From the NCBI GenBank assembly GCA_021802105.1, contig JAKAAW010000008.1, forward strand, positions 1 through 32,986: 32,986 bases of DNA, in the 5' to 3' direction. Positions 21,406 through 25,041 of the stretch are shown here, one piece after another. The position numbers and the translations under genes were made by a program. The DNA is from Nanobdellota archaeon (GTDB lineage Archaea; Nanobdellota; Nanobdellia; Parvarchaeales; Parvarchaeaceae). Under the pieces are notes generated by a model, which ran no database searches, was not told where the DNA came from, and was given only the letters and a program-made list of their open reading frames with translations. Each line of letters starts with the position of its first letter. Positions within the stretch are counted from its first letter, which is position 1.

Positions 21406-22548
21406 TCAGATTGCAACGTGCAGATATAGGGACGCCCCATATCCGACGAAAAAGGTTACTGCGGCAGCAGCTAAGCTTAAACCTACCGATTGTGTTATGT
21501 ACTTGCCAACGTTCTCGTTCGAATTTATCGCAATAAGATCAGATATTATGGCTATAGCTATCCCTGCCAGTACAACCGAGATTATAAGGTTCATGTACGG
21601 ATTAACATTTGTCACTATGCCGACAAGGAAGCTTAGGAGAGGTATAACAGCCCCGAGTATATAGAAAGCCCCAACGTAAAATGCGTCCTTCATAGGATTT
21701 GCATCAACCGTTGACCTGCTGTATATCTTTCCACTACCTTTTAGAAATTTCATTAACGGGTTGTCCTTCTCTTTTTCAAGGACCTTATATACTGGATCCT
21801 TGAACATCTTAAGTTTGGATATCAGTTCGTTTATGCCTTTATTAAAGTTCCTGTAATTTTCCGAGTGTTTCTTCAAGTCCTCTACAAGACGTTCCTTTGC
21901 GACCTGCAACTCCAGTTCGAGCCTGTTAAGGTTATTTGTCTCGATGTCTCTCTCCGATTTTGACGACAGATAAGCCCCAACCGCCATCGATATGGTACCG
22001 GATATGCCGACGATAGAACCAGCTATAAATATCAGAAGATTGTTGTGGAGGACTCCAGTGAATCCCGCGACGGCGGCAAGCACTTCTACAAGACCGTCGT
22101 TCATCCCAAACACAACATCTCTTATGTTTGCGAGTATCCCATTTCCCCCTTCTTTCTTTAGAAGCCTCTCCTGATAAAGTTCCTCTACAAGATAGTTGAC
22201 TATCTGGGTCCTGTACTTGCTAGGGATACTCGAGAAAACCTTTGATAAATCAGATATTTTTCTATTCTCTATTGAGTTCACTATACTTATAGTCAGTCCT
22301 TTACCGAAAATTTTTCTCACAAATACCAAAGACGCTACGTTCAGAGCGTGGGTGTGTTTTGTAGCAGGTAATCTCATTTCTGATCCGAGCGTTTTCCAGA
22401 TCTTAAGGTGCTTCTTGTCGATTTCTATAAGCTCCTTAAGTTTGGCCTTAAGTTGCCTGTCTCTCTCTATTTTGTATAACTCAGAGTATATACTATAAGC
22501 CAGTATCTCTGAATCTAGAACTTTCAAAAGCAGTTTTTTTGTGTCCAT
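21406..22548 (-). CDS. ferritin-like domain fused to CCC1/VIT1 metal transporter
   Basis: 380 residues. Residues 1-130 are helical and ferritin/rubrerythrin-like (EILAYSIYSELYKIERD, with E14 and later EIDKKHLKIW supplying E/H ligands; EELYQERLL at about 126). The remainder is the CCC1 transporter: RDVVFGMNDGLVEVLAAVAG, GSIVGISGTISMAVGAYLSS, then a charged cytoplasmic metal-binding-like segment and three more helices. Such fused proteins move Fe2+ or Mn2+ across the membrane, with the ferritin-like part binding or oxidising iron. It sits directly upstream of sufS on the same strand (54-nt gap), consistent with iron handling. Confidence 0.88.
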   Translation of the reverse strand: MDTKKLLLKVLDSEILAYSIYSELYKIERDRQLKAKLKELIEIDKKHLKIWKTLGSEMRLPATKHTHALNVASLVFVRKIFGKGLTISIVNSIENRKISDLSKVFSSIPSKYRTQIVNYLVEELYQERLLKKEGGNGILANIRDVVFGMNDGLVEVLAAVAGFTGVLHNNLLIFIAGSIVGISGTISMAVGAYLSSKSERDIETNNLNRLELELQVAKERLVEDLKKHSENYRNFNKGINELISKLKMFKDPVYKVLEKEKDNPLMKFLKGSGKIYSRSTVDANPMKDAFYVGAFYILGAVIPLLSFLVGIVTNVNPYMNLIISVVLAGIAIAIISDLIAINSNENVGKYITQSVGLSLAAAAVTFFVGYGASLYLHVAI

Positions 22549-23878: not shown

Positions 23879-23894
23879 AAGGTATTAATACCTT
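23879..23894 (+). promoter_or_regulatory. 16-bp perfect palindrome, probable operator of the MntA/HepT operon
   Basis: AAGGTATTAATACCTT is its own reverse complement and ends eight bases before the ATG at 23903. A smaller palindrome CCTTAAGG (23891-23898) overlaps it. The first gene carries an N-terminal ribbon-helix-helix-like domain, so autoregulation is likely. Confidence 0.55.
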
Positions 23895-23902
23895 AAGGGA
23901 TT

Positions 23903-24424
23903 ATGATATTTATGGAATTAAAAGCGTACATCGATGAAGATGTTGGTATTAAAATGAGAGAACAGGCGGCAAAACGTTTTGGTTATTTTAAGGGGTCTAT
24001 AAGCAAAGCAGTAGAAGAGGCACTCATTCAATGGCTAAGCAAAAACGAGCAACTAGAAAAAAGATTAAAAAGCCTACTGGAAAAAGCAACTGAAGATCCT
24101 AACGTTATCGCAGTTTTGTTGTTTGGAAGTTTTGCTACAGGTAAAACGAATTATAGAGACGTGGACCTATCCTTCCTATTGGCCCCGGGGAAAAATGAAC
24201 TTTCTACATTATCACGGTATGAAGATTTCAGAGAAGATCCAAAATTCGATATTTCATGTTTGAATTCTCTCGCAATAAACGTCAGAAAGGAAGTATTGGG
24301 TAGCGGCAAAGTACTTTTATGCAAGGACAAGTCAAAGCTCTATGACCTTATGATTAAGACGTTAAAAGAATATGAAGATTTTAGACATGTTTATGAGTTG
24401 ATGCTTTATGAAAGAAACAAGTAG
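23903..24424 (+). CDS. mntA: MntA-type nucleotidyltransferase antitoxin with N-terminal RHH-like DNA-binding domain
   Basis: 173 residues; an ATG at 23912 (MELKAY) is an alternative start. Residues about 4-45 (MELKAYIDEDVGIKMREQAA, then GYFKGSISKAVEEALIQWL) read as a ribbon-helix-helix: one strand, helix, G-S turn, helix. Residues 65-173 are a minimal nucleotidyltransferase with LLFGSFATGKTNYRDVDLS (G75-S76, D86-x-D88), the GS-x9-DxD active site. MntA proteins inactivate HepT toxin by adding AMP to its tyrosine. The stop overlaps the hepT start by 17 nt. The DNA-binding fusion and a palindrome just upstream suggest it also represses its own operon. Confidence 0.85.
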   Translation: MIFMELKAYIDEDVGIKMREQAAKRFGYFKGSISKAVEEALIQWLSKNEQLEKRLKSLLEKATEDPNVIAVLLFGSFATGKTNYRDVDLSFLLAPGKNELSTLSRYEDFREDPKFDISCLNSLAINVRKEVLGSGKVLLCKDKSKLYDLMIKTLKEYEDFRHVYELMLYERNK

Positions 24425-24830
24425 GATTGAAGAGAAATTGGCAGATATAAAGGAATATCTAAATGAACTCAATGGTAGGCTGCCGAGTACGTTCGAAGGC
24501 TACAAGCGCGCCGACTTGATGTTAAAAAGAACAGTCGAGAGGAACTTGCAGCTAATCAACGATAGCGAAATAGATGTTCTGGCTATTCTTGTAAAGTTAA
24601 AAGAACTCTCGATAGCGGTAAGCGAGGAGGCGCTTATAGACAGATTCAATAAGCTATTAAGCAAGAGAGTCGTGGCTCACTTGAAAGAGTTCAGAAGGCT
24701 CAGGAATATGCTGACGCACACGTATAAAAATGAAAATTATGACGAATTAGTTTTTGATTCCACGAAGAAATTGGATGAAGTGCGTGATTTTATAAGAGAC
24801 GTCAATAATCTGATAAAGGACCGCCATTAA
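24408..24830 (+). CDS. hepT: HepT-type HEPN RNase toxin
   Basis: 140 residues, all-helical. The signature R-x4-H-x-Y is exact: R99-NMLT-H104-T-Y106 within FRRLRNMLTHTYKN. R and H form the HEPN RNase site, and the tyrosine is the residue AMPylated by MntA in characterised pairs. Residues 28-60 carry the family's usual YKRADLMLKRTVERNLQLI helix. It overlaps mntA by 17 nt, so both are made from one message with the antitoxin first. An alternative role as a partner of a defence system is possible, but no other defence gene is adjacent. Confidence 0.88.
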   Translation: MKETSRIEEKLADIKEYLNELNGRLPSTFEGYKRADLMLKRTVERNLQLINDSEIDVLAILVKLKELSIAVSEEALIDRFNKLLSKRVVAHLKEFRRLRNMLTHTYKNENYDELVFDSTKKLDEVRDFIRDVNNLIKDRH

Positions 24831-24924: not shown

Positions 24925-25041
24925 GTGATAGCGTTAATAGGCCGGCGGCAAATCCCGTTCCCATTTCGAACACGGAAGATAATCACCGGCGCGTCTTACG
25001 ACTATTCCGTAAAAGGGAGAAAGTAAGTGGATGCTATCACT
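24925..25041 (+). rRNA. 5S ribosomal RNA, stand-alone
   Basis: Helix I closes perfectly: GTGATAGC (24925-24932) with GCTATCAC (25034-25041). The universal loop B/C region is present (CCCGTTCCCATTTCGAACAC, then GGAAGATAA), followed by the CCGGCG/CGCCGG pairing. Length about 117 nt. No 16S, 23S or tRNA lies next to it, so it is transcribed separately from other rRNAs. The ends are drawn from helix I and could shift by one or two bases. Confidence 0.92.

Follow-up and report, generated by a model that had tools for sequence, protein, structure and literature searches.

An archaeal HepT/MntA-type operon whose antitoxin carries a putative VapB-type DNA-binding domain downstream of a conserved candidate operator

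Introduction

Can an antitoxin that disarms its toxin as an enzyme also control the transcription of its own operon? HEPN-MNT modules have been described without a DNA-binding component, one possibly being supplied in trans (PMC2701414), and MNT proteins are described as having no DNA-binding domain (PMC7641770). Shewanella SO_3165 binds its own promoter in gel shifts, and this promoter is 1.6-fold more active when the pair is missing (PMC4621449). The question returns at a two-gene locus in the window, the whole stretch of 32,986 nucleotides analysed here, which is contig C7 of a 669-kb genome whose gene content, with MCM and an S13-S4-S11-RpoD cluster, points to an archaeon. A first-pass annotation had interpreted the locus as a HepT/MntA system with built-in operon control, an interpretation that our analysis supports: the palindrome in front of the operon co-occurs with MntA proteins of the ribbon-helix-helix (RHH) type.

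Results

The window encodes a divergent HepT/MntA pair

The antitoxin gene comes first and shares 17 nt with the toxin gene, the order and overlapping or adjacent arrangement of HepT/MntA type VII operons. In 21 other relatives the spacing between MntA and the toxin ORF ranges from -17 to +7 nt. The features of the locus are as follows.

23879..23894, no strand: palindrome AAGGTATTAATACCTT, putative main operator; half-sites 23879-23885 and 23888-23894; dyad centre at -25 from the start codon
23883..23890, plus strand: TATA-box-like core TATTAATA at -29 to -22, within the palindrome; putative promoter element
23895..23902, plus strand: third, imperfect half-site AAGGGATT, giving a second dyad 8 bp downstream, with ATACCTT
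23912..24424, plus strand: mntA, RHH-MntA antitoxin, 170 aa counted from the second ATG
23912..24049, plus strand: N-terminal ribbon-helix-helix-type domain (aa 1-46), predicted to bind DNA, kin to VapB N-terminal domains
24125..24250, plus strand: MNT active site G72-S73-x9-D83-x-D85 and likely third carboxylate D113
24408..24830, plus strand: hepT, HEPN RNase toxin, 140 aa, 17 nt shared with mntA
24702..24725, plus strand: HepT motif R99-N-M-L-T-H104-T-Y106, with RNase residues R/H and Tyr106 as predicted AMPylation site

Where does mntA begin? The first-pass annotation placed the palindrome eight bases before the start, counting from the ATG at 23903. This codon is not conserved as a start, and the orthologues L023 (GTG) and L024 (ATG) both begin where the window gene has its second ATG, at 23912, which we therefore take as the start of mntA. 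The gap is thus 17 nt instead of 8, and the centre of the dyad lies 25 nt upstream.

Both sequence motifs that had been claimed for the pair are exact: R-x4-H-x-Y occurs in HepT as RNMLTHTY (aa 99-106), and GS-x9-DxD in MntA as GS-x9-DVD. MntA matches the Pfam models Polbeta (E 3.8e-12) and NTP_transf_2, and HepT matches HepT-like (E 1.8e-10), all above cut-off. The NCBIfam models MntA_antitoxin (E 1.4e-14, 53.9 bits) and HepT_toxin (E 2.1e-11, 43.7 bits) match below their equivalog cut-off of 60 bits, which is a naming threshold of the database and not a biological feature. By sequence, the pair is thus related to the strict NCBIfam equivalogs and falls outside them, as a divergent variant of HepT/MntA. 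GSX9DXD, one residue shorter than the published antitoxin form GSX10DXD (PMC7641770), is present in 23/23 relatives examined.

The pair stands directly before a 5S rRNA gene (window 24927-25039), which starts 96 nt past hepT and is followed by the S13-S4-S11-RpoD cluster; L023 and L024, the orthologues, have different genes around them. Elsewhere in the window, at 21406-22548 on the minus strand, a weak N-terminal rubrerythrin-like stretch is fused to a VIT1-type transporter domain.

RHH-MntA genes form a family-level group

Relatives were found with a profile built from the three RHH-MntA copies of the source genome, and occur in the same genus and family. The window-type N-terminal domain is present in 18 genes: the window's own, one in each of the two paralogous pairs of the source genome, and 15 others in the family. 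The proteins of the paralogous RHH-MntA/HepT pairs are only 36–42% identical to those of the window, with 57% identity in the RHH domain, and both pairs have the same dyad at exactly -25. Five more relatives that we examined have a shorter N-terminal domain that aligns with the window type (profile-profile E 5.5e-5); where their start is clear, they are preceded by different, TATACTAGTATAACTAGTATAA-like repeats. A toxin ORF comes next in 22 of the 23 relatives examined, and 21 of these ORFs keep R-x4-H-x-Y, namely that of the window pair and 20 others. A sample of 371 genomes from the phylum was also searched; the MNT relatives that it yielded beyond the family have no such N-terminal domain, and a search for relatives in viral contigs found none. 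The HepT of L033 has no RNase histidine (RNKLIYEY), and the RHH-MntA gene of L042 has no HepT downstream.

The N-terminal domain is shared with VapB antitoxins

What kind of domain precedes the MNT enzyme? It is conserved above the catalytic domain in 102 of 105 pairwise comparisons, with a mean identity of 49% versus 36%. Pfam RHH_6 is matched by 7 of 16 relatives with a best E value of 6.9e-4, never above the cut-off, and no RHH model exceeded its Pfam cut-off for the domain, in the window or in the relatives. The window's own domain reaches RHH_6 at E 0.08, a score equalled by an unrelated model, PG_binding_2. AlphaFold gave a pLDDT of 37 for full-length MntA alone and of 62 for the N-terminal domain modelled with L068, in which low-confidence helices at 9-23 and 32-45 follow an extended start. 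Foldseek against the PDB, run with the poor-confidence model of the domain, returned nothing useful; phmmer and hmmsearch against the PDB returned only the 51-residue entry 2k6l, which we take to be an RHH protein, at E 0.45–0.9, too weak to count. Weak RHH_6 matches and kinship with VapB proteins that have 8-bp-phased operators speak for the earlier description of this N-terminus as ribbon-helix-helix-like; the structure models are of low confidence. The sequence evidence favours an RHH fold.

The same domain stands at the N-terminus of proteins found throughout the phylum, most of them 80–110 residues long. The gene after these VapB-like proteins is as a rule a PIN-like ORF in the cases inspected, and all four that were scanned are PIN by Pfam; the arrangement of domain and PIN recurs in a Thermoprotei genome. 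The DNA upstream of these VapB genes has an 8-bp period, with 67% identity at lag 8. For the MntA set, identity is 46% at lag 8 and rises to 62% at lag 16, the pattern expected since the half-sites alternate in direction every 8 bp. The met-boxes of MetJ are likewise phased at 8 bp. Because the domain is the DNA-binding half of phylum-wide VapB antitoxins that stand beside PIN toxins, the simplest reading of the sequences is that a VapB-type RHH domain appears to have been fused to an AMPylating MNT antitoxin. RHH-MntA is not itself a VapB: the N-terminus is shared, yet an MNT domain and HepT follow.

Stand-alone copies of the domain also occur. Those of L039 and L099 have a DNA methyltransferase and a transposase as neighbours, and that of L101 a gene of unknown function. 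At L039:1501-2599 and L099:570-1698, a lone RHH protein of this type directly precedes an N6/N4 DNA methyltransferase beside a DDE transposase, and is possibly a controller of the methylase.

A perfect palindrome overlaps the putative promoter

The 16-bp perfect palindrome reported earlier is indeed present at 23879-23894. TATA-like motifs in the source genome peak at -30 to -27, which suggests that mRNAs are leaderless, as the mntA-hepT mRNA probably is. The putative promoter has inverted or tandem half-sites, the layout of an RHH operator, with dyads at -25 and -17 and phasing of 8 and 16 bp.

How unusual is such a site? Among 111 sampled genes of the source genome with a clear 70-nt upstream stretch, there was no other perfect 8+8 dyad, and one other gene had a dyad match of at least 7 of 8 at -35 to -15. 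With up to two mismatches allowed, the 16-mer occurs at two places in 669 kb, the second of which precedes a paralogous RHH-MntA; AGRTATWWATAYCT occurs at four places in the source genome, three of them before the three RHH-MntA genes. A scan of 32 genomes (~22 Mb) gave exactly five occurrences of AGGTATWWATACCT, all of them 25 nt upstream of the start codon of an RHH-MntA gene, and one occurrence of the reversed control pattern. In the source genome, a single one of 145 sampled upstream regions contains AGG-N8-CCT. RHH-less MNT genes are preceded by no such dyad at -25, at most by scattered A/T-rich symmetry.

Absence of the palindrome from relatives had been named as grounds for abandoning the idea. 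Instead, a related dyad near -25 is present in 17 of the 18 genes, at a fixed distance from RHH-type MntA: its centre precedes the start by 25 nt in the window gene, both paralogues and most relatives, and by 26 nt in a few. At dyad position 5, A:T replaces G:C on both arms in L016, L025 and L032, which fall into two distinct regions of the tree; L022 has this replacement in its right arm alone. For the most part, the third half-site follows suit. When the 3' arms were shuffled between sequences, 56 of 70 cells at positions 4–8 were symmetric versus 49.5 expected (p 0.007, relatedness not removed). Covariation at the second dyad was not significant. Path lengths between the window clade and the more distant copies are about 2 changes per site, and such long branches between the RHH-MntA proteins make shared descent of neutral DNA unlikely for the operator.

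Several relatives (L022, L026-L033, L042) have imperfect or different dyads. The SQIKIYS subfamily (L026-L033) carries a GTATTTATAC-type dyad at -26/-25, another operator layout, to which L028, L030 and L031 add a perfect AGAACTATAGTTCT at -10. In the source genome, an operator-like AGGTATTTATATCT at L110:1482-1514 (C14:20188) stands 25 nt upstream of the gene for an APC-type permease; it may be a TATA box or else a site that an RHH-MntA targets in trans.

Several kinds of DNA-binding domain are joined to MNT

The source genome has 12 NTP_transf_2 hits, and within its 0.67 Mb several kinds of DNA-binding domain are joined to MNT. A VapB/DUF7557-MNT fusion (L014:1258-2030, C17) sits a few kb from a paralogous RHH-MntA/HepT pair. 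L015:1506-1934 and 2317-2841 (C19) hold a possible zinc-ribbon-MNT beside a HepT-like gene, and a winged-helix-MNT. The presence of these three kinds in one genome suggests that fusions of a DNA-binding domain to MNT are not rare among uncharacterised proteins.

Discussion

The pair is probably a real and functional HepT/MntA system, whose MntA by its sequence has an integrated, putative repressor domain. We consider it likely that it forms a type VII toxin-antitoxin operon with built-in autoregulation, in which MntA both disarms HepT and represses its own genes. HepT would act as an RNase toxin, which the MNT domain, to judge from its family, would neutralise by transferring AMP onto Tyr106, beside the RNase residues. 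The VapB-type RHH domain of MntA would dimerise and bind the palindrome together with the third half-site 8 bp further on. The dyad covers the site where TATA-like motifs peak, so that a bound repressor would block TBP: MntA sitting on the TATA-box palindrome would exclude TBP/TFB and repress mntA-hepT. A fall in the level of MntA would then derepress the operon, and HepT may tune the repression.

Could the palindrome be no more than the TATA box and BRE region that a strong promoter has, with a symmetry that follows from the A/T core and with the RHH domain acting elsewhere or not on DNA? The core does coincide with the TATA position, a TATA box is itself nearly symmetric, and one gene unrelated to toxin-antitoxin systems, the APC-type permease on C14, has its AGGTATTTATATCT at equal distance. 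The AGG...CCT arms, however, lie outside the TATA box and co-vary, and RHH-less MNT genes do without the dyad. A mere TATA box is disfavoured by the distribution of the exact site, which precedes RHH-MntA genes in 5 of 5 cases in 32 genomes, and by the rarity of AGG-N8-CCT (1/145); we hold it to be quite improbable. An operator that is real might still be used by another repressor, namely the HepT/MntA complex or a paralogous RHH-MntA, the three loci being one cross-regulated set instead of three circuits that are each self-contained. Regulation by the toxin-antitoxin complex is usual in type II systems, the three loci of the source genome have nearly identical operators and RHH domains with 57% identity to that of the window. 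The A:T variant at the C2 locus (GATAT/ATATC) suggests separate specificities instead, and many relatives are single-copy genes with an operator of their own, which leaves this alternative unlikely.

It is hardly credible, finally, that the pair has ceased to be an addiction module, with MntA retained chiefly for regulation by DNA binding and with HepT or AMPylation decayed in some copies. L033 and L042, without the catalytic histidine and without HepT, respectively, would fit such decay, as would the RHH domain being the most conserved part of the protein; against it, R-x4-H-x-Y is retained in the window pair and 20 others, and GS-x9-DxD in all 23. Returning to autoregulation by MntA, a bolder version is that the three RHH-MntA systems of the 0.67-Mb genome share operators as a cross-regulated toxin network, with a transplanted VapB domain and with repression set by the HepT:MntA ratio or the AMPylation state. 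This version is speculative, and we would rather doubt it.

What is new here? Autorepression by an MntA is already known in kind from Shewanella (PMC4621449), and the design is less unprecedented than the first-pass annotation assumed, since that MntA represses its own promoter without a fused domain. New are the dedicated fused domain, its kinship with VapB and the conserved putative operator; no RHH-MntA fusion was found in the open-licence papers searched. The DNA-binding partner is here fused in cis and held in common with VapB antitoxins, and the operator is conserved enough for direct testing. If the interpretation is true, DNA-binding modules move between type II and type VII systems, and the locus offers an uncomplicated system in which to ask whether an enzymatic antitoxin controls its own expression as well.

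One of the closest known relatives in design is Shewanella oneidensis HepT/MntA (SO_3166/SO_3165; type VII; PMC7641770, PMC4621449), which likewise has a HEPN toxin with RX4HXY, an MNT antitoxin with GS...DxD, and overlapping genes with the antitoxin first. SO_3165 is reported to bind and repress its own promoter, as the window MntA may do to judge from its sequence; it has GSX10DXD where the window has GSX9DXD, and has no DNA-binding domain, unlike the window MntA with its dedicated RHH-type domain. Its locus has two palindromes unlike each other and a weak, 1.6-fold repression, whereas the window has one conserved dyad on the TATA box. With RHH-type VapBC (L068, and phylum-wide loci among L111-L130), the window pair shares the N-terminal domain, for instance at 50% identity to L068, and phased palindromic repeats beside the TATA box. 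In VapB this domain is followed by a short tail and a PIN RNase, in the window by an MNT enzyme domain and HepT. The HEPN-RHH fusions of Pyrobaculum (paREP1; PMC2701414) also join RHH to one half of a HEPN-MNT system, but on the HEPN protein and without an MNT partner in the operon, whereas here RHH is on the MNT antitoxin. The VapB/DUF7557-MNT protein on C17, like the window MntA, has an N-terminal VapB-like domain fused to MNT, with HepT next. It uses a VapB-like family (PF24434/PF02697) other than that of the window, and is apparently an independent fusion.
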